NCBI GenBank assembly: GCA_021234155.1 | Contig: JAJEKV010000056.1 | Coordinates: forward strand, 9,406,988-9,470,987 | Source of the DNA: Isoetes taiwanensis | Lineage: Eukaryota; Streptophyta; Lycopodiopsida; Isoetales; Isoetaceae | DNA length: 64,000 nt | Direction: 5' to 3' | Shown here: positions 505-63,937 of the stretch, piece after piece | How the letters are laid out: every line of letters starts with the position of its first letter | How positions within the stretch are numbered: position 1 is the first letter of the stretch | Made by a program: the position numbers and the translations under genes | The notes under the pieces: generated by a model | What the model was told of the DNA's origin: nothing | The model's database searches: none | The model's input: only the letters and a program-made list of their open reading frames with translations

Positions 505-1752
505 ATGGCGAGGACCAAACAGACTGTTAGGAAGCCCCGCCCAGGCGAATCCTTCAGCGCCCATGATCCTGCCCTCATAGAGAGGATACTGCAAGAACGC
601 CTTTTCAGGCAAGGCGAATCTTCATCGAGTGAGGAGGCAGACTCGGACCAAAGCGACGGGACAGAGGTCCTAGGCGACGAGCGCCCAGACATCATGCACC
701 AGATCCTCGAAGAAGTCGCCGAGGAGGAAAGGAGGAGGAAAGAGGAACGGGAACAGCAGAGACAGCCGACCATCGAGGAGCAACTCGAAGCTTGGGCTCG
801 TCTGAAGGAGGCTGAGGAGAGAGAGGAGCAGCGGCAGCCGAGGCTTGACCCTGCTGAAGAAGAAGACCTCGCGGCGTTCATCAGGAAGTACGAAGCCAAA
901 GAGCGCCGCCGAGAGAGGAAGAGAAAGAGGCAGGAGGAGGAGCCTAGCACAGCCGGCGAGCCGAAGAAGAAGAAGGCCAAGGGCATAAAGGCGGGCAAAA
1001 GAACAGTTGTGAAGGTCAAGCGAGTGAAGGGTCTCGTCATCAACGAACCATCAGGCGACCAGACCCCGCCCTCCACCGACGACTCGGACGAAGATTACGT
1101 CCCCAACACTGAGGGGGCAAGCTCTTCAAAACCCCCGGTCGTGGAGAAGGAAGTACCTGAGCAGGTGGCACCTGAGCAGGAGCAGCCCGGGCAGGCGCCG
1201 AAGCCCCCACGTTACCCGACGTGGGATAGGGTCAAAGCTCCGCGGCCACAACGGGAGGCGTACGTGATAGACCCCGTCAAGGTCTATCAAAAGAAGATGA
1301 GGGCGCACAACGCCTACATGGCGAAGTGGGAGGCATACAACGCGTACTATCAGGAGCACAGGGTGAGAACCATCGAAGGCGGACACCCAACAAAGAGCCG
1401 GACTCTAAAGCCGCCACCACCCAAGCCCAAGCCTCCCAGAGCACCAGGAAAGAAGCGGACCGGCAGGAAGGAGACGGAGAGGAGAGCCCTCAAGGAGATC
1501 CGGCACTTCCAGCGAAGTTACGGATTCTTGATTCCCCGAGCACCGTTCGCCCGCCTGGTCCGAGAGGTCATCCAGGAGTACAACACAGACATGAGGGTGA
1601 CCGATGAGATGTTGCTGGCCCTGCAAGAAGCAACAAAGCAGAAACTGGTGCAGCACTTCGAAGATTCGACGGCCTGCACAGTTCATGCGAAAAGGGTCAC
1701 GCTTATGAGGCAAGACATGCATCTTGCTAGTCACATCAAGAACAAAGTTTAA
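505..1752 (+). CDS. Histone H3 variant with a very long N-terminal tail, 3' end disrupted by a transposon
   Basis: An intronless ORF of 415 codons. Residues 1-10 read MARTKQTVRK, the histone H3 start including the K4 and K9 positions. Residues 328-412 align over their whole length with the H3 core: ALKEIR, LIPRAPFARLVREV, NTDMR, ALQEAT, FED, HAKRVT, DMHLASHIK. Loop 1 is not lengthened, which argues against a centromeric H3. Between them lie about 317 extra residues: an acidic Ser/Glu block (about 48-75), a Glu/Arg-rich probable coiled coil (about 77-150), a Lys/Arg cluster like a nuclear signal (about 150-185), and Pro-rich and Tyr-rich stretches. The last three codons (NKV) and the stop come from the left end of transposon A. 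Normal H3 ends in GERA; here GERP and a stop lie at 12898-12912 beyond the transposon. By family, it would be a chromatin protein pairing with H4; that is inference. Confidence 0.85.
   Translation: MARTKQTVRKPRPGESFSAHDPALIERILQERLFRQGESSSSEEADSDQSDGTEVLGDERPDIMHQILEEVAEEERRRKEEREQQRQPTIEEQLEAWARLKEAEEREEQRQPRLDPAEEEDLAAFIRKYEAKERRRERKRKRQEEEPSTAGEPKKKKAKGIKAGKRTVVKVKRVKGLVINEPSGDQTPPSTDDSDEDYVPNTEGASSSKPPVVEKEVPEQVAPEQEQPGQAPKPPRYPTWDRVKAPRPQREAYVIDPVKVYQKKMRAHNAYMAKWEAYNAYYQEHRVRTIEGGHPTKSRTLKPPPPKPKPPRAPGKKRTGRKETERRALKEIRHFQRSYGFLIPRAPFARLVREVIQEYNTDMRVTDEMLLALQEATKQKLVQHFEDSTACTVHAKRVTLMRQDMHLASHIKNKV
1737..1740. repeat. Target site duplication CAAG, left of transposon A
   Basis: CAAG immediately before the left end of transposon A is repeated at 12894-12897 immediately after the right end. 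Removing the element and one copy restores a continuous histone reading frame, which independently supports the 4-bp assignment. Confidence 0.8.
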
Positions 1753-1770
1753 AATGAAACGCACTTATTT
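1741..1770 (+). repeat. Left terminal inverted repeat of transposon A
   Basis: Starts AACAAAGTTTAAAATG and continues through ACGCACTTATTT. It matches the reverse complement of 12864-12893 at 29 of 30 bases. The block AAACGCACTT followed by GGAATCTTT at 1778-1801 is a second inverted copy of a motif that lies just inside the right end. Confidence 0.85.
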
Positions 1771-2166
1771 GCTGCAAACGCACTTCAAAAGGAATCTTTG
1801 AAAGATTCCCTAAAATTCCCTTAAAAAAGTCCATTTTTAAGATTTTTTTGTGACAGGTGTGACAATTTAAGTAATTTAAGTACCATTTTTGAGGGGTTGA
1901 TTGAACATAACTTTCATGCAAAAATTTTAAATAGCAATTTTCATCCTCCTAAACTAGAACAAAAAATAGTTACCTTTATAAAGTGCACCAAAAAAGGGGC
2001 AAAAAAAAAAATAGCAAGGGTAGTAGAGTGACAAAGAAGTGATATATTCAAGATTGTGAAAATTGTACAAAATTATGAACAAAATTGTCAAAAATATAGG
2101 ACATTTTGACAAACACTCATCACCGCACTTTTCGTTTCTTTACATGTTCGAAGTCATCGGACAAAC
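1771..2166. other. Left subterminal region of transposon A, no gene
   Basis: AT-rich and non-coding. It holds the subterminal motif AAACGCACTT, an imperfect palindrome around GGAATCTTTGAAAGATTCC (1791-1809), and otherwise nothing recognisable. It is conserved in transposon B at 52438-52870. Confidence 0.6.
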
Positions 2167-3330
2167 TTATATTTTGCAAACAAGATCAGGATGCATCTCA
2201 TCCTCCGACTCATTTAATCCCTGATCACTTGAGCCTTCATCCTCAGCTTCACTCTCAAAACTGGATGTACTCGAACGATCTTCTTCCTCACTGTCTACAA
2301 GTGAGTCTTCATCATCATCTTTTTTTGCCACCTTTCTAGGTTGTTTGTCTAATCCACATGCCGACCTTATTAAAGTTTGAGTGACCATACATTGCACTTA
2401 TTAGCGGCAATCGTAACAAAGTCATATGCAAGAACCTTTACTTCAGCTAGATCTCTCAAAGAAGTTGCTTGCTTTGGACTTTGCTCTCTTTCCCACTCCT
2501 GTTTTTACCATCTCCAAAGTATAACTCCCACTGAAAGCATTGGCAGCATTCGTTCTCATCCAGTGCACTTTTAGTTGAGTGGGAATTCCATCCTCTCTTG
2601 TTACCTCTAGTACTTTAGCTAGCCAGAATGGCTTCCCAGATTCATCATTATCAGCTGGGACAGCTATGAGCATTCCAAAGGTTGGTGCGTGGGGGGCGGT
2701 GTACATGACTGTCATCTTCATCCGAGCTAGCCAATATCTCTACTTGTTCCTCTTGATTCTCAACTTGCATGGGGAGAGTTTGCCTAGATGGCCAGTTGAA
2801 TGTAACTGTTCTTCGACCTTGTAATGAAGCTTGCAACATGTCACGTTGTCGAGAAAAAAAACTCGAGGCCACCATAAAGCATCCGCCTCCCCAAAGTGGT
2901 TAGAGCACGATGAATACTTGTCTCAATATAATCCAATGATTTGTTTGAGTCAAATGCTCTTCCCTCCTTTTTTACTCTTTGTGATTTCTTTCAAGCTTTT
3001 AGAGGCATTTTTGCGCTGCAGAGAGCATGGAACTAGTATTGGGGATGGTGCTAATGAATTGAATACACTGGCCGCTGGCCGCCAATCGCAAGGATGTGGC
3101 ATATTTCTTTTCCTTGTAAGATGGCCTTGCCATCTACAAGTGAAATTTTGATCTCGATCTTTGAAATGTAATGTTTCTCAAGGGCTCAATAGCACAGTGA
3201 CCCAGTTGATCTCTCCGAAAAATCCATTCTTTGAAATCATAAGTTTCTTCCAATAACTCGATGTCTGGACGAGGATTGTAGGAATCTTGGATAACCTCAA
3301 TCATTGCTGGTAGGCTGAGAGCTTTTTTTC
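2167..3330 (-). pseudogene. C-terminal part of the DUF7869-type transposase gene of transposon A
   Basis: Reading down the minus strand after the catalytic-like core: a block reading MIEVIQDSYNP (about 3300), then WIFRRDQLGHCAIEPLRNITF; further on a globular segment with GMLIAVPADNDESGKPFWLA and QLKVHW (2721-2443) that resembles the reader-like domain at the end of such proteins; finally a highly acidic tail rich in Ser, Glu and Asp (2397-2167). The pieces are in different frames, so introns or frameshifts separate them. The same pieces occur in the same order in transposon B (53932 to 52876), which supports their being one gene. Confidence 0.55.
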
Positions 3331-3342
3331 CAAAGAAGACGT

Positions 3343-4735
3343 TTAGAGAACCCCCATGAACATCTGATCAATTTGATCGTGTGTATGACCAACAAGCAGG
3401 AAACCAATCTTCACCTTCTTGAAGATTTGTTTCTCTACTAGCATAGCACAATAAGCAAACAACGCCTGATTCTTATTTTCCCTTGTCGTGTTGTCTAGTT
3501 GAAGATACAGAACCGGTGGTATATGTTCTAGATTGGAAAGAAGCTTATTCAATATTGTGATAGTGAGATTTGGATCAGCATGAATATTTGGATAATTCAA
3601 AAATGCCTTGCAAGATAGTTTTCCATTAAATACCATAACACCAACAACATGCAGATGTATGAAATCTTCTTCAGCAACATCCTTAGGCACATTGACAAAA
3701 TGTGGTAGGGTGGTCTTCTTCTGGTCCATTTCATCAATAACAACCGATATGTAGTTGAGTAGTTGTTCCAGTGCTTTCTTCCTATGTTTTGTCAATTTTC
3801 TCCTTTCCAAAGATTGTTGTTCTCTGTGCTTGTTCAGTTTCTCCTTCAATGCATCTGAAATGAAAATATGTTTAGGAAAGAACCTACTTTTAAGTAGAAC
3901 TAGGCAAGAACACGTTCTGGAAGCTTACTTTTAGTGTGAAATGTCCTTGCATTTTGTCTCTGAGCTTTTAATTCAGAGCATGTAGCACAAACAGACATCC
4001 GGTGCTTTCTAGGAATGGACACGCGAGAAAACTCTTTTTTTCCAGAGCACAGTGAAGTAAGAGTAGCAGACATGGCGTTCTCCAGCCTCAACACACATGT
4101 CCTTATAATTATCGTAGACTTCACGTTTCGTGAAGTTGTCACTCAAGTGGTACATGGGGTCAGGGGAGTTTCTCGCAAGACTCCTTAAAGAAACCTTCCA
4201 TCCAGGAAACACATTGAAGGGCATGAATTCTGGATATACCTCCTGAATGGCAGTAGTCATTAATGCCTGGATTCTTGTCAAGCCTTTTCTTCAGGCGGTC
4301 AAGTCGTCTGCTGCCTAAAGCATGAATCAATTTGAAGGCCGTTTCACAGACGGTGTGGCCACCAGCTGTGTAAGTAAACTTCTCACCACAATCTGGCCTA
4401 ATATTGAAGGCTAAGTAGCCCCTTTGGTCTAGCAGAGTCATTGAACTATAACTATCACGAATCAACCTCAATTCCTTTAGTCCAATCTTAAGCAAACAAT
4501 GTTGAGAACAACAATGCACAGGGTATTTTTTAACCTCCCTATATATTTGATGGGGCGTAATATATTGGCCACTACTTACCTTGGATAATTTGCTAAGTGT
4601 AGTTTGGCCTGGCCCTTTTTCGCATTGTTGCACCAAGAGGTTATAACTTAAATGGCGAAATCGAGGAACTATTTTTCTCTTTAGAAATTTGAATTGGCCA
4701 CATCCATACATCTGACACATAAAGATGCTAGCCAC
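3343..4735 (-). pseudogene. Core of the DUF7869-type transposase gene of transposon A
   Basis: Three minus-strand pieces in different frames. The first (4735-4160) has Cys/His-rich sequence and the block GGHTVCETAFKLIHALG. The second (about 4281-3929) has FTKREVYDNY, then YFTVLWKK and RMSVCATCSELKAQ, a CxxC region usual before the catalytic core of this family. A clean intron follows (3855-3928, GTAAGC to TTTCAG). The third (3854-3343) has VVIDEMDQKK, a candidate first acidic residue, then LYLQLDNTTRENKNQ and LVGHTHDQIDQMF, the hallmark blocks of DUF7869 proteins. Frameshifts near 4270 and 4030 break the gene. The role as transposase is inferred from the element's structure; the family has no function I can name with certainty. 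Confidence 0.7.
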
Positions 4736-5210
4736 GTCAGTAAGACAATCTCTAGTTCCTATGATGCTCTATGCAGTTCATTAACAAATACATGCTACTA
4801 TGCTTCTCCAACTAAGATATCTATAAGATCTGTATTAAACATGCAGAATGTAGGCAGAAGCACACATGGATTTGGTAGATGGATCTCATCGAAATCCATA
4901 TTGCAAGTACTTGGTAAATGGAAACTAACCTTGATTTTAATTGGGAAGATGAAGTGGAGATTTAGGCTAGATGATGAAGAACAAATTTGGGATGCAAAAT
5001 GCAAATCGAATGAAGACAAACTTGAACATAAGAAAAAAATCCTATATCATTAGAAATGCCTTTAGAATTTTATGGCTAAACTCAAAAAGACTTTACCTCC
5101 CTACAAGTGGCGAAATTCTGTCCCTACAACTGGCCAATATAGAGTCTGGCCATAATCCTAGAATTATAAAATTATTTCGTGGTTTAAATGGCCACCACAA
5201 CAAGTCGCTA

Positions 5211-7007
5211 TCTTATATTATAAAGTTTTAGCGTATGTCTTGCATCAAACCCTAATTTAGATAGTTGAGATCGTCTGATTGCATTTGAAGGCCGAGATTT
5301 ATCGCACAACTTCCCACCACCATGATTGGCCATGCTCTGATCTCTTAAGAGGAAAGGGAAAATGGCAGAGAAAAGGGCAAAGTGAGAGGCAAAAAGGCAC
5401 GGGTAAAAGGGAAAGACGGAGAAGGAAAAAGGAAAGGGAAAAGAGCATGAAAAAGGGAAAGAAAAAGAAAGGGAGAAAAAGGAAGGAAAAAAAGACACTA
5501 TGAAAAGGAAAAGGGGGAAAGGGTGAGGACAGAATAAGGGAAAAGAAAAGGGGAAGGGAGGAAAAGGAAGAAAAAAGGGGCAGCGGAAAAAATGTGAAGA
5601 CGAAAAGGGTGACGGAAGGGAAAAAGGGGAAGATAAGAATGGTGGAGAGGGAAAAAAGGGCATGGAAAAATAGAAAGGGAAGGAAAAAGGAGGCGAAAAA
5701 GGGAAAAGGGCATGAGGAAAAGGGAGAGGGAAATGAGAGAGGAAGGAGAAAGTGGCACGAGAAGAGGAAAAGGGTGAGAAAAGGAAAAAAAGAAAGGGAA
5801 AAAGAGATGGAAAAAGGGAAAAGGGAAAAGCGAAAAGCAAAAAGAGAACAGAAAACATGGAATAGGAAAAGAGGAAAAGGGAAAAGGGGAAGAGGGTGGG
5901 AAAAGGAGGAAAAAGGGCATGTGAAAAAGGTGGAAAAAATGGAATGGAAAAAGGTGTGGGAAAATGGAAAGGAAAAGAGAGAAGGAAAAAAAGGATGGAA
6001 AGGAAAGCGGAAAAGGGCATGGAAAAGGATGAAAAAAAGAAGGAAAAGGAAAAAGGAAATGGAAGGCGAAAAGGGAAAGGGGAAAGAAAAAAGAACACGA
6101 GGAATAAGGAGGGAAAATGGAAAAGAGGAAGGGAAAAAGGGCACGGAAAAAACTGGAAGAGGGAAAGGGTGAGGAAAGGGTAAAAATAAAGGGAAAAAGA
6201 ACATGGGGAAAGGGAAAAGAAAAAGAAAAAAGGGGAATAGGGACGGGGAAAAGGGGAAGAGGGTAAGGAAAGGCGGAAGAAAGGGAAAGGGAAAGGGAAA
6301 GGGAAAGGGAAAAGGAAAGGGGGAAGGAAAGAGGAAAAAGGCACGGGAAAAATAGAAAGGGTGGGGAAATGATGAAAAAAGAAGGAAAGGGAAAAGGAAA
6401 AAGGGAGGCGGAAAGGGGGGAAGGAAAGGAAAAAAGGCATGAGAAAAAAGAAAGAAGAAAATGGGAAAAAAGAGACATGAGATAAAGAAGAAGAGGGTGA
6501 GGAGAGGAAGAAAAACATAAAAAAAAAAAGGTGGGGAAAAGGGAATGCAGGGCATGAGAAACGGGAAGGGAAAAGAGAAAAGCAAAAGGAATGGGAAAAG
6601 GAAAGGGAAAAAAGATCATGAGAAAAATGGGAAGGGTGGAGAAAGGTGAAAAGGGAAGGAAAAAAGCCGTCAAAAAAAGGGAAAGGGAAAGGGAAAAATG
6701 AGAAGGAGAAAAGGAAGAAAAAGAGGACGGAGAAGAGGGTAAAAAAAAGAGAGAGAGCAGGAGAAAAGTAAATGTGCAGGGAAAATAAGAAAAGGGAAAA
6801 AAGAAAGTGTGTAAGAAAATAGGGAAAAAAGGATATGCAGGATAGAGCAAAGGGAAGGTTATCAAATGCACAAAAACCTCTTATAGCCTAGCAATGATGG
6901 ACTTGGTTTCTATTATATTAGATGTATAAAAATGAGTCTGAGCTGAATAGGTTTCCATCCACAAATGTTCCCAACATTTGCCCAGCAACGCTGGGCACCA
7001 TTACTAG
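5211..7007 (+). mobile_element. Non-autonomous Helitron, copy 1, with a purine tract
   Basis: Starts TCTTATATTATAAAG after an A and ends CTAG before a T, the A/T insertion rule of Helitrons. The 3' end carries a stem-loop GCCCAGC-AAC-GCTGGGC (6980-6996) 7 bases before CTAG (7004-7007), preceded directly by a second stem-loop (6962-6980). Two further copies (17137-19023 and 46992-48879) have identical ends at unrelated sites. From about 5340 to 6860 the plus strand is almost only A and G. No Rep/helicase gene is present, so it depends on another element. It interrupts the transposase gene of transposon A. Confidence 0.92.
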
Positions 7008-7198
7008 TCGTGTATAATATTTTGGAATGGCCACGCCCTAGGGGTTCGGAGATTTGGCAAATATCAAATTGGCCACTTATGGAGTGAATTTAATAAGTTG
7101 GTGTTTTGAACTGGCCACCACCCTTTGGTCATGGTGAGAATGCATCCTACTCTGGCGTGGCCGACAATTTTACGAAATATGTGAATGTGCCGGGGCCA

Positions 7199-7921
7199 CT
7201 AAAAAATACCCTGATGCTTTGTATGTGTTGCCCTCAAGTGAGCCTCGTCCATGAGTTTCTTTCTTCTAACGGTTGTACATGCTTTCTTGTGTAAGTTACG
7301 CTTAAGATTCTTACTTGCAGGGGCTTTGAATTTGAACATGGAGTCTTGTGGCTTTGGTAGGTCCTCGTCTGAGATATCAACATGAGGTGTTTCTTCGTCT
7401 GAGAGATCAACTTGAGGTGTTTCTTCGTCTGAGAGATCAACATGAGGTGTACTTGTAGATGCTGAGAGGTTTGATGTGGGCAAGTCCTGGGGGGAGGTGC
7501 TTTCCCTCTCTCTGGGAAAAAGTAATCGAGGTTGGTGACGTAGTTGACCAGCTCCCTGAAGTGTCGAGAACACGAGGGAGTTGCGTGGTCATTGATCGCT
7601 CCCACTTGTTGTAGTACCATTTAGCGAAATGGATGGAGTTGGGGTGATTTGCCTCCGGGGAGGGAGCCTACGGTGGACTATGGGCGACGTACTAAAATGA
7701 ACTGGAGGAGGTAGTCTGAGCTCTCTAGCCTGTGGTGGAGTAAAATGCATTGATGGGGGCAAACGACGTTCAGGAGCAGGGTGTGGTGGAGTAAATTGAA
7801 CTGGTGGTGGAAGCCGAGGTGGTCGTGCTGGAGTAAGCTCAACAGAGCTGGGGGTTGGAATGTCGGAGCTAGAATATTCGTGGCTACTTCCTGGTGTCTG
7901 TTGAGGAGGTGTGAAAGTCAT
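7199..7921 (-). pseudogene. N-terminal exon of the DUF7869-type transposase gene of transposon A
   Basis: The minus-strand ATG at 7921 opens a frame that runs to 7199 with one in-frame TGA at 7589-7591. The first 110 residues are Pro-rich with three imperfect repeats around RLPPPVQFTPP. After the TGA come three tandem repeats TPHVDLSDEE, TPQVDLSDEE and TPHVDISDED, which look like SUMO-interaction motifs (hydrophobic core followed by acidic residues), then a basic region RRKKLMDEAHLRA. The start is conserved in transposon B (ATG at 55810). It faces the methyltransferase gene across 444 bp. The TGA may be a mutation or lie in a small intron. Confidence 0.6.
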
Positions 7922-8365
7922 TGCAGGGGAGGAAGCCCGCTTGAACAGAGTTGAGGCTCATAGTTTTTTTCTCTCGAGCCATACTCGAAAGTTAGCCATT
8001 AATCGTATAAATTTATACGACAGAAGAACAGACAGTATGTTTTTACACAGAGATGGTATAAATTTATACAGGGAAGAAAAACTTATATGACAGATCAGAT
8101 AAATTTATACAGATGGTATAAATTTATACAGAGGAGGGCAACATAGAACGTAAACGTATAAATTTATACCCTAAAAACTTACGGATACTTGTATTGAAAA
8201 CTTTGTGGAGAAGCTTATACTAAACCGGCACTTAGCAGAGGTACTTAAGCCCTGCGCCGCCACCCTATTTTCTATATAACGCATTTCTGAGTCGAAGGCG
8301 CAAGGTGCGGCTTATATACCCCCTTATTTGCTCTCCGGAACTTCTATACGCGAGTCCATACTGTC
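7922..8365. promoter_or_regulatory. Divergent promoter region of transposon A with spaced palindromes
   Basis: This 444-bp stretch separates the two divergent start codons. It holds palindromes of the TATAAATTTATA type at 8005, 8055, 8095 (partial), 8115 and 8155, and two plus-strand TATA-like boxes at 8273 (TATATAAC) and 8313 (TATATACC). The second TATA box and the flanking bases are kept in transposon B at 56210, so it is the better candidate for the methyltransferase gene. Each palindrome itself contains TATAAA on both strands. Confidence 0.6.
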
Positions 8366-9359
8366 ATGGCCACGTAAGTCTACTATCCGCATCGTTCTAG
8401 TTTCTCTTTTGTTTTAATCGTTAGAGTGTAAGCGCACCACGGTATAAATTTATACCTGGATGGCTCCGATCGGTATAAATTTATATCGCCCAGTACTGGC
8501 GGTATAAATTTATACCGCTTGAGAACATGATCGGTATAAATTTATACCGCTAGTGTACTCGAGCGTATAAATTTATATTGGATTGAAGACGAAGCCGGTA
8601 TAAATTTATACCGCTTCGCAACACTTATGCATAAATTTATACCGAATGTCTTCTGGAACGGTATAAATTTATACCGCTCGTGCTCGGGGCATATAAATTT
8701 ATACCGACTGTGTTCTGGAACGGTACAAATTTATACCGCTCGTGCTCGGGGCGTATAAATTTATACCGTTCCAAAACCATTTCGGAATCTTAATGTTTAA
8801 TGCTTAAAGAATGGTCCCGAACCTTAATATTTTAGTAATATTGTTGTGTTTTAAGCTTAAATGTCACAAATAAAGTGTAAATTTAGTGTGGATTTTATGC
8901 CCTTTCAGCCTCTGTTTTTACTGTTTTTGTGTTTCAAAAAGTCAAAAAAGGTTCTGTTTCTTATGTAAAAATGGTTTTTTTAACGCTTTTTCCAGCCCCA
9001 AGTTAAAGTTTGTACACAGAGGCCAATCGTCAAAGGCTGCACCAGTAGAGCCACAGACATACGAACTAAAAGACCAGACGTGGTACGTCCACAGGGGCGC
9101 AAGAGAGAGCAAACCAACTGAGGCGTACCTGTACTTGTGCCATCAATCAGGGAAGGGCAAGTACAAGTCTGATGATTATTACCCTGCCGGCGAAATTGTA
9201 AACCTTGTTCCTACAGAGACCGAAGATGAAATTTTAATGAAGTGCATGCATGACAAAGGGGAAGTCTTCTATGTTCTTAATAGTAAAATGCTTAGATTAA
9301 GCATGTGCAAGCCCAAAGACGTGCATGACTACATATCTGAAAATTACAAGGGCGGCTAT
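8366..9359 (+). CDS. Methyltransferase gene exons 1 and 2: unknown N-terminal domain
   Basis: Exon 1 is only 8 coding bases (ATGGCCAC) before GTAAGT; joined to exon 2 at 8996 it gives an intact 124-codon stretch. The tiny first exon with its donor is conserved in transposon B at 56263. The domain contains DQTWYVHRG, EAYLYLCHQSG, YYPAGEIVNLVP and EVFYVLNSKMLRLS, a beta-rich pattern that could be a small reader domain (Tudor- or BAH-like), but I do not recognise it. Intron 1 holds the palindrome array. Confidence 0.65.
8441..8767. repeat. Array of 11 palindromes GGTATAAATTTATACC, period about 31 bp
   Basis: Copies start at 8441, 8472, 8501, 8533, 8564, 8597, 8628, 8660, 8690, 8722 and 8752. 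Spacings are 29-33 bp, mean about 31, near three helical turns. Each copy is a perfect or near-perfect 16-bp palindrome; the 13-17 bp between them differ, apart from two related pairs (TTCTGGAAC and CTCGTGCTCGGGG). The array lies in intron 1 of the methyltransferase gene. It looks like an iteron array for a dimeric DNA-binding protein. Confidence 0.9.
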
Positions 9360-9471
9360 GTAAGTTATTCTTAGTGGCTTTACGTATAAATTTATACCGT
9401 CATTCTCCTAACTTAACCCTGGATTACAAGATATAGTAGACATTTTGATGTCAGTAGTGCTTTGTGAACAG

Positions 9472-10371
9472 AAAGTGTTGGTCAAGGGTCTATGGTACCC
9501 CATTCCTAACGAAGAGGAAGAGAAGGACGAGGAAGTAGAAGAAGAAGAGGAAGAGGAGGAACCAGTGGTACCAAAGGGAAAGGGTAGGAAGCATTCCCTG
9601 GTAGTAGATACACAGGCTCCCACAAAAAAAAAAAAGTCTAGAACCACAAAGTCCTTGACTATAGAGGAGTCAGCAGAAGCTCTTCAGAAGGCTCCTGGAG
9701 CAGATATTGTTGTGAAGCCCGCAGATAAATCAAGTGTTATTCTTAAGCGGGTGAATGACACTAAACTGCTCAAGCAAACTATTTCTTTGACATTGAGCAC
9801 TATTAAGAGGCCACCTAAAAATGAAGATGGGGTCAGAGTGCTACAGGTCCGGAAGTTGTATGCGGCACATGTGGCTATACTGAAACAAAGAATGAGAAGG
9901 AATCCTCATGCCCATGTGTCGCCACTAGTTGTTATGGTGGACAGTAGTCAGTGCAACCAACTAAAAGATTACAAGAAGGCTGACTTCGAAGATTACACAT
10001 ACTACGTTCTTGGAGGCACACATAGTTACAAGGCAAGGAAAGAACTAGCAAAGGAAGAAAGCCGTAACGAAGTGTGGAAGAGCGTGGAAGCGCATATATA
10101 CGTGGGTGTAACAGTGCCGTGAGTCATAATCTCGACAATGACTTCAGATTGAAAATGAGTTTAATAGACAAGAATCCGTTTCATGCACCGTGAGTACGTG
10201 GAATTTAAACAAGTGCATGGAGAGGATTTTAAAAAGCAAAAGAACAAGCTGTAGGAGCTTCGAGAAGCCTGCGTGACAGAGTGCTGCCTCAGTTATGACT
10301 CTGATAAGAAGCCCATTATGGCAGTAAAACAATACGATAACTACTTTCAGCTCGCATTCAGAGATGGTCAA
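9472..10371 (+). CDS. Methyltransferase gene exon 3: acidic linker and ParB-like segment
   Basis: Begins after an AG at 9470-9471, in phase with exon 2, and ends at GTGAGT (10372). An early Glu-rich run and a Lys/Ser basic cluster (PTKKKKSRTTK) are followed by a segment with NPHAHVSPLVVMVDSS and YYVLGGTHSYKARKEL; the GGxHxxxA pattern is that of ParB/sulfiredoxin-like domains often found with DNA methylases. Frame is lost near 10118 and again near 10170, where transposon B lacks one A, and an in-frame TAG stands at 10252. The last codons (QYDNYFQLAFRDGQ) are in frame with the donor. Confidence 0.6.
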
Positions 10372-10423
10372 GTGAGTAAATGCTTTCTTTCTGTCTTTTG
10401 TAGTATGTTTAGCGTGGTTACAA

Positions 10424-10463
10424 GTGACTAGTCACGGTATAAATTTATACCGTGACTAGTCAC
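10424..10463. repeat. Perfect 40-bp palindrome in intron 3 of the methyltransferase gene
   Basis: Two copies of GTGACTAGTCAC (itself a palindrome) flank the 16-bp palindrome GGTATAAATTTATACC, so all 40 bases are self-complementary. It is the only place where the common palindrome is extended in this way. Confidence 0.95.
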
Positions 10464-10483
10464 CGTGCGCATTTAGACAGTAG

Positions 10484-11482
10484 ACTGTGCAACATATTCT
10501 CTTGCGCCATGCAACACTAAACTAATGGCGTTTGTCCATTTACATGTATGGGATCTTCAAGAAAGAATTTTTTGTATGTTCGAAGATGGTGAGCTTAAAG
10601 AACAAGCCAGCTCCGCAGGAAAAAAACCAAAAAAAGGTGGGGAACCAAAACAAAAAAATATAAGCATTTTACCCTGGACGCAGTTACAGGGTCTAAAAAG
10701 CAAAGAAATTTTTGTTCGCCTTTTGGAAAAAGTCGTGGCCAAGGAATTACATTGGACGAAATGGCCAAGGAAGCTAAGACGTAAGCCTCATTTGCAATGC
10801 CGTGTTTTTTCTACATTTTTTGGTCTTACAACATGTTTCTCTTTGCAGTCAGAAAGACATAGTCACCTGCCAGGCCGAGTTAATGAAGCAGCTAAACCTA
10901 GAGGACTGGGAGGAGTGCAAGCTTCTATACCCAAGTTGTACCACTGATAGTATCATCAGAGAGCACGCTGTTAACTTCAGTGGCTGGGTAAGTTTTGTTA
11001 AAAATATGTTCTGTGTATGTGCCTTTTTCTCACAGTATTCTTACAGAACAAGAAAAAGGGGCTACCCGCTGGATTTTTAAACCTGGTTCGTAGGGCCAAG
11101 GAAGAGAGGCAGAGACTTAAGGCAATCGACGGGGAAGAGAGGTCGCCACTAGCGCCTTTGACACTTCTTATGAAAGATTTACAACGTTTGGTCGGGACTG
11201 CCAGGCCAGAGTTGTTCGTGGATCGACGAGGCGGGGACACTTCTAGACAAGCAGAATTTTACATTATGCATTGCAGATATTCCCTATGGTTTCAAAATTA
11301 AGGACAGCGCTTTTGACGAGGAGGCTTTCACGCACCTGCAAGTCCGCTCTTTTTTGGATGGCCTGAAGGAAATCACCTTATCTGCTAACTGGAGGGTCAT
11401 CATTTTCCATTCCGACCCTGCATGCATGTCGGTGCTTAAACCCTCGGGGCCTCATGCAGAATGCCGCCAAAAATCGCGTTTG
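10484..11482 (+). CDS. Methyltransferase gene exons 4-6, with motif IV
   Basis: Exon 4 (start uncertain, to 10780) ends in GITLDEMAKEAKT after a frame change in an A-run near 10720. Exon 5 (10849-10987) reads cleanly in phase (QKDIVTCQAELMKQLNLEDW to HAVNFSGW). Exon 6 (11047-11482) begins NKKKGLPAGFLNLVRRAKEE; after a frameshift near 11240 it gives the catalytic motif region ADIPYGFKIKDSAF, where D-I-P-Y stands for the D-P-P-Y of this enzyme class, and WRVIIFHSDP. Donors are GTAAGC, GTAAGT and GTAAGC. A further frame change near 11445 precedes the donor. Confidence 0.6.
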
Positions 11483-11522
11483 GTAAGCTTTACATTCAAC
11501 GCTTTTCGTTTTAGTAACTCCA

Positions 11523-11655
11523 CGGTATGAATTTATACCACAACTGCCCTAAGGTTTAAATTTAAATGGCAAGGCAATGTTTGTATAAATTTATACGGCT
11601 TGCCGCCGTGGTATAAATTTATACAGCAAGGCAACCCTGGTATAAATTTATACCG
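11523..11655. repeat. Four palindromes in intron 6 of the methyltransferase gene
   Basis: Copies of the TATAAATTTATA palindrome lie near 11523 (one change), 11582, 11609 and 11640, with one further AT palindrome TTTAAATTTAAA near 11553. Spacings are again near 30 bp. The intron is bounded by GTAAGC (11483) and GGCAG (11726). Confidence 0.8.
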
Positions 11656-11726
11656 CCACACTGCTGGGCTAACTTATTTTCCTTGTTTTCATTTTACTAA
11701 TATTTAATTGTTGTATTGTTTGGCAG

Positions 11727-12414
11727 GCTTAAAACAAACGTCAAGGGTCATGGTGGTGGTCCGCGCTTAGTGAGTTGTTTCGAGTATTTTCATATAGGTT
11801 TTTACAGCGCGGATGCCAAAAAAACCATGGTCCATTTCAACACGCAGAATGAGAAGACTCCTCCTTGCAATGCTTTTCAGTTCCCAGCTGTTATGTAGAA
11901 ATTAAGAGACCCACAGCGACAAGGCGCTGTGGTGTCCCATTATCAGAAACCACAGCGGCTTATTAATAATTTGATACAGTGGTTTTCTCACCCTGGAGAC
12001 TGGATCTTAGATGCCTTTTCTGGATCAGGCACCACAACAGTTTGCGCCCTTAAGCAGGGGCGCAATGTCGTCTCCGTCGACATAGACCCAGATAAAGTAA
12101 GTTTCATCAGGACCAGGATAAGCTCTTGTGAATCCTTTCCTGATGAAAATGAGGAACTGGGAGCAAAGAACGGTGCCAGCGATGTTAAAGGCACTTATAC
12201 AGAAATATAGCCTCCACTTACAGGAAGAAAAGATGAGGAGGTGGAGTTTGTCGACTTGGAGCCTGTGGTGCCTGAGCCAGAGAAACCGCCTGTGCCGGTA
12301 GGACTCGAATCAGAAGGAGGTGTCTCTGCTGTTGTAAGCTCGCAAGAGCCAGATCCTAAGGGGTATGAGAGTCCTGTGGACTGGGAAGAGCCACCTCCCC
12401 CACCTCTCGTATAA
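11727..12414 (+). CDS. Methyltransferase gene exon 7: motif I, AdoMet-binding part and acidic C-terminal tail
   Basis: One frame from the acceptor to TAA at 12412, interrupted only by TAG at 11896 and 12208. It contains HYQKPQRLINNLI, the usual motif X-like lead-in of beta-class methylases, then PGDWILDAFSGSGTTT (AdoMet-binding motif I) and GRNVVSVDID. After 12210 comes a low-complexity acidic, Pro-rich tail (FVDLEPVVPEPEKPPVP, DWEEPPPPPLV). Both TAG codons are one C-to-T change away from CAG. Confidence 0.75.
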
Positions 12415-12863
12415 ATTTATACAGACAGAGTTCTTAACTACTTCCATTGTAAACTATGTGCTAAGTATTATTATAATTTATTTTGATGAAGATTTTTAAA
12501 TTGAAAGCTTTGTCTCTTCAACAATACTTAATTAAACCAACTCTTTCTTGCTCCAAGATTTCACACTCTTTGTCTTTCCAATGTTTGATTTTCTTCGTAC
12601 TTATATTAAGCTTGCAAAAAGACAAACTATATTTCCTTCTGTTATTAACAATAAATACTTACTGAGTTATCAAAAGTATTGTCTCTCTCCTCAAAACAAG
12701 CATTTTTTTTTTGCCCTCTTTTAAAAATGAAAAGGCTTCAAAAATGTTGCTTTTTTGGGGGGATTCCGAATGCTAATTGCTCAACAATCTATTTTGCTCC
12801 CTATTTTGTGTGTTTTTTTCAAGTTTTCCATTTTTATAAAGGAATCTTTCAAACGCACTTCTT
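12415..12863. other. Right subterminal region of transposon A, no gene
   Basis: AT-rich, non-coding, with a few T-runs. It contains the motif GGAATCTTTCAAACGCACTT (12841-12860), the inverted partner of a motif just inside the left end. The counterpart in transposon B (60850-61295) is well conserved, in contrast to the damaged region before it. Confidence 0.6.
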
Positions 12864-12893
12864 AAATAAGTGCGTTTCATTTTAAACCTTGTT
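12864..12893 (-). repeat. Right terminal inverted repeat of transposon A
   Basis: Reverse complement starts AACAAGGTTTAAAATG and matches the left end at 29 of 30 bases. It is followed by CAAG, the target duplication. Confidence 0.85.
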
Positions 12894-12912
12894 CAAGGGA
12901 GAACGCCCCTGA
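12894..12912 (+). other. Displaced 3' end of the histone H3-variant gene
   Basis: After the second CAAG the sequence codes GERP and TGA in the frame of the H3 variant (GGA GAA CGC CCC TGA). Canonical H3 ends in GERA, so this short piece is the lost C-terminus, now 11.15 kb from the rest of the gene. Confidence 0.8.
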
Positions 12913-13058
12913 ACATTTTGTAAATAATAGAAAATTTTGTTAATACAAAGATTTTTTTGGTTAAATAATGTATTTAATCTTGCTTAATTAGGTTAAGGTA
13001 TGGAATTCTGGCTTTTGTTTTGGTAAAATTGGACTTTTTGAGCAAAATTGAGACGATG
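12913..13058. other. 3' flank of the H3-variant gene, no further gene seen
   Basis: AT-rich. It begins AACATTTTGTA, similar to GACATTTTGTA just after the second hairpin-linked gene at 15169, a possible shared 3' end signal. Nothing else is recognisable before the hairpin at 13059. Confidence 0.4.
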
Positions 13059-13123
13059 TCTCACACGTCGCGCCAGGACAGAAAATGAACTTTTCATTTT
13101 CGGGCTGGGCGCAACGTGTGAGA
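13059..13123. repeat. 65-bp hairpin, copy 2
   Basis: Arms TCTCACACGT and ACGTGTGAGA with inner pairing CGCGCC/GGGCGC and AAAATGA/TCATTTT. Same length as the copies at 119 and 13259. Confidence 0.9.
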
Positions 13124-13258
13124 CCATGCTCCAAAAATGCCCAAAACAGCTCCAAATTGACCAAATAAGGGGTCAATTCTGCCTAACTCGACGAGTTCAG
13201 TAGAATTAGACCCTTAGATCACCCAAATTGATCGAGTTTAGCCCATTTGGAGCCCATG

Positions 13259-13323
13259 TCTCACACGTCGCGCCAGGGCAGAAAATGAACTTTTCATTAT
13301 CGGTCTGGGCGCAACGTGTGAGA
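13259..13323. repeat. 65-bp hairpin, copy 3
   Basis: Nearly identical to copy 2, from which it is exactly 200 bp away, while the sequence between them is unrelated. It stands about 260 bp before the TATA box at 13517. Confidence 0.9.
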
Positions 13324-13516
13324 CCTCTCAGCATTTTCTTCACCATGACATATCCAAATGATCTCTAGTTTCTTGCAATAGGTTCATTAGTTGATCTTAG
13401 CATGCTCAAACCCTAAAAGTAGTCTTCAAATTCTCATTTGCACCTCTTAATAGGTCAGAATCGCCCAATCCCAGTAAAATTCTAGGTCATCCAAAAATTA
13501 GGGTTTTTCCCTTTTC

Positions 13517-13638: not shown

Positions 13639-15149
13639 ATGGCCACTGCTGACTTCAGGCCAGTGCCCACGCTGCCGAAGCTGATGTCAATGACATCTTC
13701 CGAGTCTTTAGGAAAGAAATAGATGTCCAAGCCACTCTGAATGCAACCCCAGCATATAGACAAGTTTTAACAGAGTTCCAAGCCAGGGTAGGACCCTCCC
13801 TAGTGCAGCTCCCCCCTTGCACAGGCTATTTTGTCCCCCGTCCATCCCTTCAAGCAGCCTTGGGTGATGTCCCGAACATCGCCAAATACTTGACCAACAA
13901 GGCACATAGGCTGCCAGACTATATGGTCCTGACAGTTGACAGGACCAAGTATTTTTCCTATACCGCCGCCTTAGCCATTTTCCTCTCCCACCGTGCAGAA
14001 AACCCAATCGGGGGAACCTCTATTCCTCCCATGGAGGTGGACCCCATAGCATCCTCAGCAGAAGAACAGATGCTTTTGCAGTACGAGCAAGAGCAAGAAG
14101 GAAGAGCAGAAGAAGAGGAATCAGAGGACGAAGAGTACACGGAGCTCGACCCGGAGGAAGAACGGCGGCAAGCAGAAGAGGAGCTGACCAACTTCGAGCG
14201 GAGCCGGCAGACCCTCAGAGTCGCTCCCCCACTTGGGCTGGGCATCACAAGCCTAGCCCCTATCATCATCGACGGTGAGGAATATCTGCTCCTCAGCGAC
14301 ATCCAGAACCTCCCCGAATGCAGGGACAGGGAGCTCCGGCTTGATGAGTTGCTGCACCAACTACGGCAGTCCGACTTGGACGACTTCATCGTCCGGGGAG
14401 TCTCAGACTTCCCGCTTCAAGTCAGGGAAGCCGACACTTATGCAGGCGAGTCGACTTCCGACATCCAGGCCTACAGCAACATCAGGCAAATGATGGAAGC
14501 ACGAGAGCTGCCAACGGAGGAGGAGTTCCTCGCCCTCCAGGAACAGATGGGGATCCGTGGCAAGACCACGAGCATCTTAATGCCGAGCCCCTCGACACCA
14601 CCCCCAGCAAGAGGAGCAGGAATCGACCTCAGGCGAGTCGACTCGACAATTGCGGACTACCAAGAAATGACGGAAATAGAGGTCGACGAATACGCCGGGC
14701 GGCATAGAGCAGGAGGCCAAGCAAGCGGAGAATCGTCAGCGACACACAATGACAGGTCGCTGAGGTACTACCTCCCCCTGCTGCTGGATGGGAGAATAGC
14801 GGTGATACACCGCAAATTCAGTCCTCGGGGCGAGGAAGGAGTGTTCATGCTCATTGCACTCTCTGGCTTCGGCAGGCATGTTCGAATAGCTGCAAATGTC
14901 GACTATGCTGTCTTAGTCAAGAGAGCGATGGCACTCGACCTCTTCGACCTCGCCGTGGCCTACCGACGGCAGGGAAGATTGGCAGTGACCGCGGCTTACA
15001 CCTCCGACCGCAGGGTAGAGGAATTGGTGACCGCCTTGCAGGGCGGCACGTCAAACAGTGTCCTCAGAAACTTGGGACGCTCGGTAGGAACGGCCCAAGT
15101 TAAGAAGTTTCTTGAAGACAACCCATCTTACCGGCGATTTCAAGATTAG
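13639..15149 (+). CDS. Orphan acidic protein sharing the promoter type of the H3 variant
   Basis: The main frame is open from 13654 to 15149 (about 498 codons) but has no ATG near its start; the well-placed ATG at 13639 is in another frame, so a single-base change after it probably broke the start. The protein has an N-terminal globular part (FRVFRKEIDVQ, YFVPRPSLQAALGDVP), a Glu/Asp-rich stretch (14080-14200), and a C-terminal globular part (RYYLPLLLDGRIAVIHRKFS, VFMLIALSGFGRHVRIAANV, FLEDNPSYRRFQD). I do not recognise any domain and see no histone fold in it. Codon use looks coding (C/G-rich third positions) throughout. The shared hairpins and TATA box suggest joint control with the H3-variant gene. 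Confidence 0.55.
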
Positions 15150-16273: not shown

Positions 16274-17136
16274 GCCTCCAGAATTCTATGGTCATTTTTG
16301 TTGAAAATCATTTGAACCTCCGCTTGTACGCTAAAGATCCAATACCAAATCCTTATATACGGCCAGCAACAGCCATTTGGCATACTATCCATAATCTTTA
16401 TCCTTTTTAATTGGAAAAAAGATTTTTTAAGCTAGGCAAACACATTTTCTGCCAAGTGCAGGAAAACTCGTCTAAGAAAGCCCTCCCTTAATTCAAATAG
16501 ATCTGATTCAACAACACTTTTGCATCTGAATATGCTGGATTCGAGTTCCAAAAGCAGATTCGATATGCTTTGACCAATAAGATTGGATATGGCAACAAGG
16601 CTGTTTACAGCAAAACTCAAATAGATAGTGCCATATTCGGCATTCAAACAGGTGTTATGCATCTGTATCATTCCAGAAATAACTAACAGCAATAAATTCG
16701 ACATAAGACAGGTTCGGAACTGTATTTTGAGCCCTAAAAATAAAGCCAGAAGAGCCCATCTAGGCCTTGGCATTTATGATGCATCCCTGATATCAAAGCA
16801 TGCAACAGGCTTCACCGAATTTTTGTGTTATCAGATCTTAAACAACCCAATGCATATCCGGAACTCTGCCATATTCGGCTGTAACCAATAGATCCAGAAA
16901 TCATATTTTTTTGTACTCGGTGCTAACAGATAGTATGCCAATCCTGATGCTAGTTGCCAGTTTCGGCCTCCTGAACTTGGATTCATGTCTCCAGTAGCCA
17001 TGTCTCCAGTAGCCATGCATGCGGCCATGTAGCCGCTTGTCCTCATGCCAAGCCCTAAATCGATTTCTGATCCATGCCCTATGCCCTAGATCAAAATACT
17101 TAGAATTGATTATCAAAAATACCCATTTAAAAGGTA
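16274..17136. other. Non-coding region between direct repeat and Helitron copy 2
   Basis: No gene recognised. It carries a short tandem duplication CCAGTAGCCATG near 16990-17017 and is cut by the Helitron at 17137. Confidence 0.5.
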
Positions 17137-19023
17137 TCTTATATTATAAAGTTTTAGCGTATGTCTTGCATCAAACCCTAATTTAGATAGTTGAGATCGT
17201 CTGATTGCATTTGAAGGCCGAGATTTATCGCACAACTTCCCACCACCATGATTGGCCATGCTCTGATCTCTTAAGAGGAAAGGGAAAATGGCAGAGAAAA
17301 GGGCAAAGTGAGAGGCAAAAAGGCACGGGTAAAAGGGAAAGACGGAGAAGGAAAAAGGAAAGGGAAAAGAGCACGAAAAAGGGAAAGAAAAAGAAAGGGA
17401 GAAAAAGGAAGGAAAACAAGACACTATGAAAAGGAAAAGGGGGAAACGGTGAGGATAGAATAAGGGAAAAGAAAAGGGGAAGGGAGGAAAATGAAGAAAA
17501 AAGGGGCAACGGAAAAAATGTGAAGACGAAAAGGGTGACGGAAGGGAAAAAGGGGAAGATAAGAATGGTGGAGAGGGAAAAAAGGGCATGGAAAAATAGA
17601 AAGGAAAGGAAAAAGGAAAAAGGAGGCGAAAAAGGGAAAAGGGCATGAGGAAAAGGGAGAGGGAAATGAGAGAGGAAGGAGAAAGTGGCACGAGAAGAGG
17701 AAAAGGGTGAGGAAAGGAAAAAAAGAAAGGGAAAAAGAGATGGAAAAGGGAAAAGGGAAAAGCGAAAAGCAAAAAGAGAACAGAAAACATGGAATAGGAA
17801 AAGAGGAAAAGGGAAAAGGGGAAGAGGGTGGGAAAAGGAGGAAAAAGGGCATGTGAAAAAGTTGGAAAAAATGGAATGGAAAAAGGTGTGGGAAAATGGA
17901 AAGGAAAAGAGAGAAGGAAAAAAAAGGGTGGAAAGGAAAGCAGAAAAGGGCATGGAAAAAGAGAAAAGAATGAAAAAAAGAAGGAAAAGGAAAAAGGAAA
18001 TGGGAGGCGAAAAGGGAAAGGGGAAAGAAAAAAGAACACGAGGAATAAGGAGGGAAAATGGAAAAGAGGAAGGGAAAAAGGGCACAGAAAAAACTGGAAG
18101 AGGGAAAGGGTGAGGAAAGGGATAAAGGGAAAAAGAGCATGGGGAAAGGGAAAAGAAAAAGAAAAAAGGGGAATAGGGACGGGAAAAAGGGGAAGAGGGT
18201 AAGGAAAGGCGGAAGAAAAGGCAAGTAAAAAAAAGTGGAAAAAAGGGAATGGAAAAATACATGGGAAAAAGGGAAAAGGAAAAAGGAAAGAGAAAGGGAA
18301 AGGGAAAGGGAAAGGGAAAGAGAAAAGGAAAGGGGGAAGGAAAGAGGAAAAGGGCACGGGAAAAATGGAAAGGGTGGGGAAATGATGAAAAAAGAAGGAA
18401 AGGGAAAAGGAAAAAGGGAGGCGGAAAGGGGGGAAGGAAAGGAAAAAAGGCATGAGAAAAAAGAAAGAAGAAAATGGGAAAAAAGAGACATGAGATAAAG
18501 AAGAAGAGGGTGAGGAGAGGAAGAAAAACATAAAAAAAAAAGGTGGGGAAAAGGGAATGCAAAAAGGGCATGAGAAAAGGGAAGGGAAAAGAGAAAAGCA
18601 AAAGGAATGGGAAAAGGAAAGGGAAAAAAGATCATGAGAAAACTGGGAAGGGTGGAGAAAGGTGAAAAGGGAAGGAAAAAAGCCGTCAAAAAAAGGGAAA
18701 GGAAAAGGGAAAAATGAGAAGGAGAAAAGGAAGAAAAAGAGGAGGGAGAAGAGGGTAAAAAAAAAAGAGAGAGAAGGAGAAAAGTAAATGTGCGGGGAAA
18801 ATAAGAAAAGGGAAAAAAGAAAGTGTGTAAGAAAATGAGGAAAAAAGGATATGCAGGATAGAGCAAAGGGAAGGTTATCAAATGCACAAAAACCTCTTAT
18901 AGCCTAGCAATAATGGACTTGGTTTCTATTATATTAGATGTATAAAAATGAGTCTGAGCTGAATAGGTTTCCATCCACAAATGTTCCCAACATTTGCCCA
19001 GCAACGCTGGGCACCATTACTAG
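17137..19023 (+). mobile_element. Non-autonomous Helitron, copy 2, with a purine tract
   Basis: Begins TCTTATATTATAAAG after A, ends CTAG before T, with the 3' stem-loop at 18996-19012. It is 1887 bp long and differs from copy 3 by little more than point changes. Purine-only sequence covers about 17270-18870 on the plus strand. Confidence 0.92.
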
Positions 19024-21967: not shown

Positions 21968-22516
21968 GTGCATGCAGCTAGAAGCACAGGATCAGCAGAG
22001 CAACAACGGCGAAACCTTAGGGAAGAGCAGAGTCCGCCAAGGCCACACCCGGCAAGGAGCCTGTATGAGGCATTTGGACCCATGACCCCAGAGGACGAAA
22101 TATCACAGATGAGGACGGACCTTGAGCAGATAAAGGCTTTCCTGACCGCACAAGCAGGAGTTGGTTCGGAGGGCAACGCTCAGCCGCCACAAGCATCAGC
22201 TCGAAAAGCAGAAAAGGACAAGAAGAGGAGCAAGAGGAGGAGGTCCCCCAGCTCGGAATCCTCCGACTCAAGCTCGGACTCAGACTCTGGCTCCGAGGAA
22301 TAGGCCGAACAAGTGCAGAACCGAAGGGAAGACAGAAGCAGGGAGACTAAAACCTCGGACTACCAGAAGAAGGTAGACTCTGCGTTGGGAAATGTATGGA
22401 AAGCCAGGAAGCTCGAGCAATTCTCAGGGGAGAACAGATCAGGTATGGAAGCAGAGGCTTGGCTCGATGAAATGAGCGAATACGGTGAACGCCTATGGCA
22501 TGAAGGACAAAGATAA
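21968..22516 (+). pseudogene. gag: Chromovirus gag, N-terminal part
   Basis: One frame carries an RS/KR-rich N-terminal region (KRSKRRRSPSSESSDSSS), an in-frame TAG at 22301, then NVWKARKLEQFSGE and [13 protein letters not shown] one-base change near 22480 moves the frame into the main gag-pol ORF. The TAG is one change from CAG. Confidence 0.7.
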
Positions 22517-32574: not shown

Positions 32575-32816
32575 CACGGACCAAATTGCTAGGGACCAAT
32601 GAGCTGCCTAGCATGATGAGGGTGCTTCTTGAAGAGATGGTCAGGGTTTGGAAGCACCACAGGAAAAACAACATTAACATGATACTAGCGTCGACATGGC
32701 TGACGCCAGACATACTTGACATGGAGCTATGGTTCAAAGGGGATGGACAAGTGGAGGACTTCACGATGGAAACCATAAACCAAGCTCGTGAGGAGTATGC
32801 TGAATTGTTCAAGTGA
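32575..32816 (+). pseudogene. Captured coding fragment of an unidentified gene
   Basis: A coding-looking stretch ending in a natural stop at 32814: MMRVLLEEMVRVWKHHRKNN, INMILASTWLTPDILDMELW, FKGDGQVEDFTMETINQARE and EYAELFK. It begins abruptly where the array sequence ends. Composition and residue pattern are those of a conserved globular protein, but I do not recognise the family. It is followed by about 370 bp of non-array, 3'-UTR-like sequence. Confidence 0.5.
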
Positions 32817-40300: not shown

Positions 40301-40402
40301 TAGGGACCAAGTTCCGTGGCCAGAAGACCACCCGACCTCCAAGAGGCGCCAAAGTAGCTCACTTCCATCACACTCGTAGTCAATTGGCCTAGGATGTGGA
40401 TG

Positions 40403-46969: not shown

Positions 46970-46991
46970 TTGGCGGCATATTTATATTATA

Positions 46992-63060: not shown

Positions 63061-63063
63061 GGT

Positions 63064-63905: not shown

Positions 63906-63937
<32 letters not shown>

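Follow-up and report, generated by a model that had tools for sequence, protein, structure and literature searches.

DNA-modifying enzymes borne by mobile elements are already known. DIRS retrotransposons carry Dam-like adenine methylases, and C5 enzymes have been described in charophyte and dinoflagellate retrotransposons in a study that also cites DNMT-bearing DNA transposons of marine viruses (PMC5890265). TET/JBP dioxygenases occur in fungal DNA transposons (PMC12730594). The short motif bound by the Arabidopsis protein VANC21 lies in introns and in intergenic and terminal non-coding parts of the element, where its copies build up as tandem repeats form (PMC5735166). The N4CMT enzyme of bdelloid rotifers is reported to have no homologue in other sequenced eukaryotes (PMC8885841). 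Here we describe a 64,000-nt stretch of the Isoetes taiwanensis genome (contig JAJEKV010000056.1, positions 9,406,988 to 9,470,987; hereafter, the window), which contains a DNA transposon bounded by terminal inverted repeats (TIRs) and carrying a PF01555-type DNA methyltransferase (methylase) gene, together with many copies of a short palindrome.

What appears to be new is the PF01555 enzyme in a TIR transposon combined with a candidate self-recognition array, and no PF01555 enzyme within a TIR transposon was found in the literature searched. An earlier reading of this DNA, made from the sequence alone (the sequence-only reading), had considered an N4/N6 enzyme in a plant DNA transposon to be novel. 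The same arrangement was indeed absent from the literature searched, but its kind is known from the Dam-like enzymes of DIRS elements (PMC5890265) and from the TET/JBP transposons (PMC12730594).

The transposon and its two copies

Positions 1741-12892 are one bounded DNA transposon (copy A), in which the methylase gene lies beside a DUF7869 gene, the two being arranged head to head and transcribed divergently. The same arrangement is present as remnants in a second copy (copy B). The survey of copies covered the 64-kb window and yielded these two, neither of them intact; in both, the element ends enclose the methylase gene or its remnants.

The TIRs of copy A are 29-30 bp long, inverted, and differ from each other by one mismatch over 29 bp. 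Their 24-bp core, GTTTAAAATGAAACGCACTTATTT, is found exactly at 1747 (+), 52414 (+) and 12887 (-), and the whole window contains no further ungapped match to it with five or fewer mismatches. The insertion site of copy A lies in the last codons of an intronless frame encoding a histone H3 variant. This frame starts with MARTKQTVRKP, which resembles the H3 tail, continues with approximately 280 additional residues, and ends with the H3 fold; the match to H3.1 (E=4e-23) spans residues 291-413 and stops just short of the C-terminal end. The C-terminal end of H3 is RIRGERA. When the flanks of copy A are joined with a single TCAAG, the end of the frame is restored (HIKGERP followed by a stop codon). 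Because of the TCAAG target site duplication (TSD) and the restored frame end, copy A is a precise insertion with the methylase inside, and with an empty site this exact, the methylase and the transposon are very unlikely to be neighbours by chance.

The right end of copy B is recognisable in sequence, but degraded, and no clear TSD is seen in its flanks (TTCAA versus TCCAA). Self-comparison aligns the two copies in five segments: 1741-2509 with 52408-53172 (92.6% identity), 2577-4515 with 53173-55145 (90.2%), 7215-8456 with 55146-56353 (80.4%), 10166-10376 with 58184-58390 (71.8%), and 12436-12894 with 60857-61326 (83.6%). The whole of A 4516-7214 is absent from copy B. Copy A is enlarged by a TC-rich nested repeat at 5208-7008, which belongs to a purine/pyrimidine-biased family of 1.8-1.9 kb with three copies in the window (the others at 17135-19024 and 46991-48882; 93-99% identity).

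The DUF7869 gene matches PF25273 over profile positions 1-111 of 192 (E=7e-38 and 1e-37). Its product is presumed to be the transposase, given its position and a DDE-like pattern. The name DUF7869 was not found in the literature searched.

Some differences between the copies likely have a technical origin. Of the CAG and CTG trinucleotides in copy A, 40 of 51 and 37 of 47, respectively, read differently in copy B, versus 25.7% for all trinucleotides; CCG (14/19) and CGC (15/21) are also often changed, and in the opposite direction, from B to A, the changes affect CGG (36/44), CCG (13/18) and GCG (30/42). Relative to expectation, CAG and CTG together stand at 0.27-0.46 across the five 2-kb bins of 54001-64000 and at 0.62-1.20 in the other 27 bins, with the last depleted bin lying beyond the element limits. 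Long CT-rich tracts are present in the window from approximately position 57000 onward. The loss of CAG and CTG in 54001-64000 looks like basecalling or consensus errors at methylated CHG sites, and the CT repeats are possibly artefacts. A plant host is suggested by this CHG-type error pattern, along with the gene anatomy and the sequence-only reading. Given the pattern of changes and depletion, the interpretation of the CT-rich tracts of copy B as real biology was dropped, and since errors in copy B are suspected, differences between A and B were not taken as evidence of decay.

The methyltransferase gene

Our analysis supports the assignment of the gene product, from its sequence, as a beta-class (permuted) DNA amino-methyltransferase. 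In the 926-residue read-through protein of copy A, the PF01555 (N6_N4_Mtase) profile scores 54.4 bits (cut-off, 26.7 bits; E=2.2e-14), the match being limited to the motif I half of the domain (profile positions 133-215 of 221). Around motif I, the MboIIA, RsrI and CcrM methylases are found in PDB (E=5e-7 to 6e-6). The protein database search retrieved 11 proteins at E<=0.001 (7990 candidates scored), all annotated as PF01555; the annotation was confirmed by the scan in 7 of the 11, and the sole organism named among them is a bacterium. The match to MethyltransfD12 at the S-adenosylmethionine motif reaches 18 bits, which is below the 22-bit cut-off; Dam-like methylases belong to this D12 family.

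Motif IV precedes motif I, and its D, P and Y columns are invariant in the alignment with three phage PF01555 enzymes. The beta-class consensus for motif IV is [DNS]PP[YFW], and copy A reads DIPY instead of DPPY; motifs IV and I fall into separate exons of the broken gene. A motif IV of the form D-x-P-Y favours N6-adenine over N4-cytosine. Since motif IV here reads DIPY, N6-methyladenine is taken to be the more probable product. The PF01555-type domain is described as having switched its specificity repeatedly (PMC8885841).

In phage records, the 300-aa methylase query yielded 477 matches at E<=0.01, none of the 477 covering more than 80% of the query, and 1,937 matches at E<=1, ten of them with coverage of at least 80%. 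One of these ten, gp71 of the Halorubrum virus HRTV-28, has a PF01555 match (E=9.4e-33) and a ParB_N score of 24.9 bits, just under the cut-off of 26.3; it aligns with the window methylase from motif IV to motif I with 26% identity (E=4e-9 for this single comparison). In viral contigs, the methylase query found two loci (L001:5001-5207 and L002:5001-5207; 35% identity, query residues 24-100), while the DUF7869 and ParB-like queries found no loci in these contigs and the TIR had 0 matches there. The paired-palindrome pattern occurs in five stretches of four viral contigs; in genome contigs, the pattern search gave 24 stretches, none of them confirmed.

The gene has approximately seven exons, whose borders are our reading of GT-AG sites and open frames; the introns are GT-AG. 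In copy A, it is interrupted by four frame breaks (at about 10110-10122, 10172-10174, 10746-10749 and 11219-11220), by a splice-phase mismatch where exons 2 and 3 join, and by three TAG stops (10252, 11896 and 12208), of which that at 12208 may be the true end. These breaks may be real or may be sequencing errors. In copy B, the start of the gene (8366-8456) corresponds to 56263-56353 with 90% identity, and collinear pieces are 10132-10376 with 58146-58390 (E=3e-28), 10750-10842 with 59133-59229 (E=2e-14) and, with motif IV, 11262-11761 with 59678-60218 (60%, E=5e-23). One additional match in this region is non-collinear and consists of palindrome sequence. The comparison of the copies found no counterpart in B for A 11762-12420, which holds motif I, and the remaining methylase region of copy B is mostly CT-rich.

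The N-terminal part of the protein contains a possible ParB-like domain. PHROG 1033 (ParB-like) matches with E=0.099, and Pfam scans of the methylase protein gave no match to ParB. When gp71 and six phage relatives were compared by hhalign with this segment (ParB_N having been checked, among these seven, in gp71), GGTHSYKA was placed on the GEHRWRA box with 1.2% probability, and two of 150 shuffles scored as high; in the whole-profile hhalign comparison the ParB box was unmatched, and only the motif I region or a chance stretch was aligned. With tblastn, the segment retrieved one phage record (E=3) and one plasmid record (E=7). Its single-sequence fold was uninformative (mean pLDDT 42), and the 50 PDB matches listed, out of 510, included no ParB.

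These data agree with the sequence-only reading in its central points, namely, a spliced beta-class methyltransferase gene and a DIPY motif IV ahead of the motif I DAFSGSGTT; the former is now backed by PF01555 and the latter by the alignments with the phage enzymes, including gp71. The gene itself, read there as such, is present, but in copy A it is broken, with the four frame breaks and two or three stops. Its position within TIRs next to a transposase gene, claimed for both copies, stands for the ends and for the DUF7869 match, with the reservations that copy B is badly corrupted, having a degraded right TIR and no motif I, and that the transposase role is presumed. Of the profiles that had been considered informative, PF01555 exceeds its cut-off, whereas the ParB-like GGTHSYKA segment, which resembles the ParB/Srx box, has weak support in the profile comparisons above.

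The palindrome array

The palindrome GTATAAATTTATAC recurs in the methylase gene and in the divergent promoter. If up to two mismatches are allowed, region 7922-12421 has 24 of them: 19 exact, four with one mismatch, and one with two. The exact 12-mer TATAAATTTATA occurs 23 times in the window, 19 times in copy A, four times in copy B and nowhere else, while the mean in 100 shuffles is 0.00. The sites are spread over the promoter, four introns and the 3' end, with 16 of 24 in the promoter and intron 1. They avoid coding sequence: all but one of the 24 lie off the exons, even though exons make up 2832 of 4490 counted bases. The exception, the site at 12410, was exonic in one count; with the exon taken to end at 12409 it fell outside, leaving 0/24 in exons. 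Among the sites, the 16-bp core has 86-90% identity, and the flanks, compared without gaps, have 26-34%. The spacing of 31 bp seen in intron 1 is close to three helical turns.

The window scan found no exact palindromes in the DUF7869 gene or beside the termini, which makes the array a feature of the methylase gene and of the promoter that the two genes share. The spacers of intron 1 are more similar to each other than shuffled ones, so tandem duplication accounts for at least part of the growth of the array, the motif being kept while the spacers diverged; a 62-bp tandem duplication contributes to this similarity. Since both strands of the palindrome carry adenines, it would be a natural site for symmetric N6-adenine methylation.

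Proposed function and alternative explanations

The interpretation that we favour, with roughly balanced confidence, is that this is a decayed, once autonomous transposon of the DUF7869 type, with a palindrome array that serves as the target of its own methylase or of a partner protein; adenines there would be methylated, and the element would thereby be marked or kept expressible. The element would have moved by cut-and-paste, with two divergently transcribed genes, and its methylase would be of bacterial or viral ancestry, possibly bearing a ParB-like DNA-recognition part. As for recognition, the anatomy suggests that the methylase or its partner may bind GTATAAATTTATAC in the shared promoter and introns: it resembles the target arrays of VANC, which suggests an element protein as the reader, and since the array sits inside the methylase's own gene, the methylase is the best candidate. 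As for chemistry, adenines at the palindrome or nearby would be methylated, with N6 preferred. The effect of the mark might be to label the element DNA or to maintain its expression against host silencing; it could also hold the promoter open, tag element DNA for its transposase, or control the methylase gene. Self-recognition had been proposed in the sequence-only reading, which did not mention the array; the idea gains support from the array, whose function is proposed from its anatomy.

Several observations weigh against this interpretation. As sequenced, copy A is non-functional and copy B is in a poorer state still; moreover, only two copies were seen, both in the window. The naive chance of at most one of 24 sites falling into exons, approximately 2e-9 by hand calculation, assumes independent sites, and the sites of an array are not independent. 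At up to two mismatches, the whole window has 52 sites: besides the 24 above and two in the nested region of A (at 5165 and 5219, both with two mismatches), copy B has 13, and another 13, none of them exact, are in neither copy. The promoter palindromes are irregularly spaced. The similarity of intron 1 spacers, with gaps allowed, is 0.382, exceeding both the mean (0.290) and the maximum (0.338) of shuffles. The ParB-like assignment is weak. Finally, the palindrome might instead be bound by the transposase or by a host factor, its link to the enzyme being one of sequence anatomy.

More tentatively, the element may be viewed as a transposon-built modification system, in which a captured bacterial-type methylase would read the phased A/T-rich array and lay N6-methyladenine (6mA), or N4-methylcytosine (4mC), as a self-mark that counters silencing by cytosine methylation or licenses the transposase.

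The rival explanation that survives best, though we consider it unlikely, is that the methylase is captured cargo of one lineage, with no role in the element, and the palindromes are an unrelated minisatellite or sites for a host factor (TATAAAT resembles a TATA box). The decay of both copies and the residual tandem-duplication similarity of the spacers are consistent with this, as is the absence of exact palindromes near the termini, which leaves no direct tie to transposition. On the other hand, in both copies the gene, or what remains of it, faces the DUF7869 gene head to head, and the sites lie in the promoter, four introns and the 3' end, amid largely unrelated flanks and almost entirely off exons, a pattern not predicted by simple expansion.

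It is still less probable that the palindromes are operators, to which the methylase or transposase binds cooperatively, autoregulating the divergent promoter, so that any methylation would be an expression switch and not a self-mark. The concentration of two thirds of the sites (16/24) in the divergent promoter and intron 1 fits such a model, the spacing near three helical turns suits cooperative binding on the same face of DNA, and a 40-bp perfect palindrome is present; but the distant downstream intron and 3' sites exceed simple promoter control, and the spacing is irregular at the promoter sites themselves. A host or foreign gene lying by chance between unrelated repeats, with the transposon being a nested-repeat artefact, is very improbable, since, despite the abundance of nested repeats in the region, there are TIRs, the TCAAG duplication, the H3 C-terminus restored at the empty site, and a copy B that shares the left end and gene order.

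Features of the window

The coordinates are collected in Table 1. Near the H3-variant frame and an open frame at 13803-15149, a hairpin-like unit, GTCTCACACGTCGCGCC...GGGCGCAACGTGTGAGAC, is repeated by eye at 118-183, 13055-13135 and 13260-13327, and the self-comparison has inverted matches in 13019-13327. The 13803-15149 (+) frame comprises 448 residues and has a TATA-like promoter that by eye resembles that of the H3-variant frame; Pfam gave no convincing match for it (best E=0.047, under its cut-off). Further downstream, 22485-26764 (+) contains two frames resembling, by eye, the gag-pol and integrase of a Ty3/gypsy retrotransposon, and 31765-40404 is a direct-repeat array with units of roughly 1.1 and 2.1 kb (86-98% identity).

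Table 1. Positions of the features discussed, counted from the first nucleotide of the window
Feature	Position	Strand	Basis
H3-variant frame, intronless, interrupted in its last codons by copy A	505-1752	+	PF00125, E=4.4e-25
Left TSD, 5 bp, TCAAG	1736..1740		sequence reading
Left TIR of copy A, AACAAAGTTTAAAATGAAACGCACTTATTT	1741..1770	+	24-bp core match
DUF7869 gene, approximate extent, interrupted in copy A by the nested TC-rich repeat	2170..7957	-	three-frame reading by eye and self-comparison
DUF7869 (PF25273) domain, LQLDNTTRENKN ... GHTHDQIDQ, presumed DDE-type transposase core	3343..3924	-	Pfam
Divergent promoter, 5 palindromes (4 exact, 1 with one mismatch), irregular spacing	8006..8168		
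Methyltransferase gene, decayed copy, ATG at 8366	8366..12411	+	GT-AG borders and open frames, by reading
Methylase exons (~7)	8366-8373, 8996-9359, 9431-10371, ~10525-10781, 10849-10987, 11047-11483, 11724-12209/12411	+	
Intron 1 array, 11 palindromes, spacing 29-33 bp (mean 31.1, standard deviation 1.1)	8443..8765		
Possible ParB-like domain, SPLVVMV ... VLGGTHSYKARKEL ... VEAHIYVG	9736..10172	+	weak profile matches
Perfect 40-bp palindrome in an intron, centre TATAAATTTATA	10424..10463		
Motif IV of the methyltransferase, DIPY (context ADIPYGF)	11276..11287	+	alignment with phage enzymes
Second phased array, 5 palindromes (3 exact), spacing 28-29 bp, in the intron preceding the last exon	11526..11652		
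Motif I of the methyltransferase, DAFSGSGTT, S-adenosylmethionine site	12010..12036	+	PF01555 and PDB matches
Palindrome over the candidate methylase stop codon	12410..12421		
Right TIR of copy A (reverse complement ACAAGGTTTAAAATGAAACGCACTTATTT)	12864..12892	-	1 mismatch versus left TIR
Right TSD, TCAAG	12893..12897		sequence reading
Copy B: left TIR as in A, right TIR degraded, DUF7869 gene, promoter palindromes, collinear methylase remnants	52408..~61325	+	

Comparison with known systems

Functional 6mA or 4mC in plants is disputed. An element with its own amino-methyltransferase and a candidate target array ties the question to a defined enzyme and site, together with a clear prediction.

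On the enzyme side, the closest relatives considered are viral and bacterial. HRTV-28 gp71 and related phage methylases have a ParB-like N-terminus (in gp71, below the cut-off), and gp71 likewise has motif IV before motif I, at approximately 26% identity and in a viral setting. Bce_0392 from Bacillus cereus is a ParB-methylase, but a bacterial one (PMC5512222); for the window protein, a relation to ParB is possible. The rotifer N4CMT is, like the window enzyme, a eukaryotic, intron-bearing, permuted PF01555 methylase of bacterial type, but it is a chromodomain-containing host gene for which no transposon context was noted (PMC8885841).

Among mobile elements, DIRS likewise combine mobility with an adenine-type methyltransferase, but they are retrotransposons, not TIR DNA transposons, and their enzymes are of the Dam-like family (PMC5890265); the window element has TIRs and DUF7869, and its D12 score stays below the cut-off. 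The charophyte, dinoflagellate and marine-virus elements carry a methyltransferase that possibly acts on their own DNA, as proposed here, but their enzymes are C5 DNMTs, not PF01555, and the carriers are retrotransposons or virus elements (PMC5890265). In the TET/JBP transposons, a DNA-modifying enzyme lies beside the transposase, as here, but these enzymes oxidise 5-methylcytosine, and the elements are fungal and belong to other superfamilies (PMC12730594).

The likeness to the VANC/VANDAL (MuDR) elements is at the level of arrangement only: a gene accompanied, in introns and intergenic DNA, by a short motif in many copies, partly in tandem. The VANDAL21 motif, YAGTATTAY, is non-palindromic, and VANC causes loss of DNA methylation (PMC5735166), whereas the window motif is palindromic and the window enzyme would add a mark, its link to the motif being suggested by anatomy. 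If the favoured interpretation is true, the window element would be a depositing counterpart to VANC and to the transposon TET/JBP enzymes, which remove host marks, and a eukaryotic analogue of phage self-modification. The arms race over transposon silencing would then extend from the removal of marks to the addition of a mark that the host may not read as silencing.

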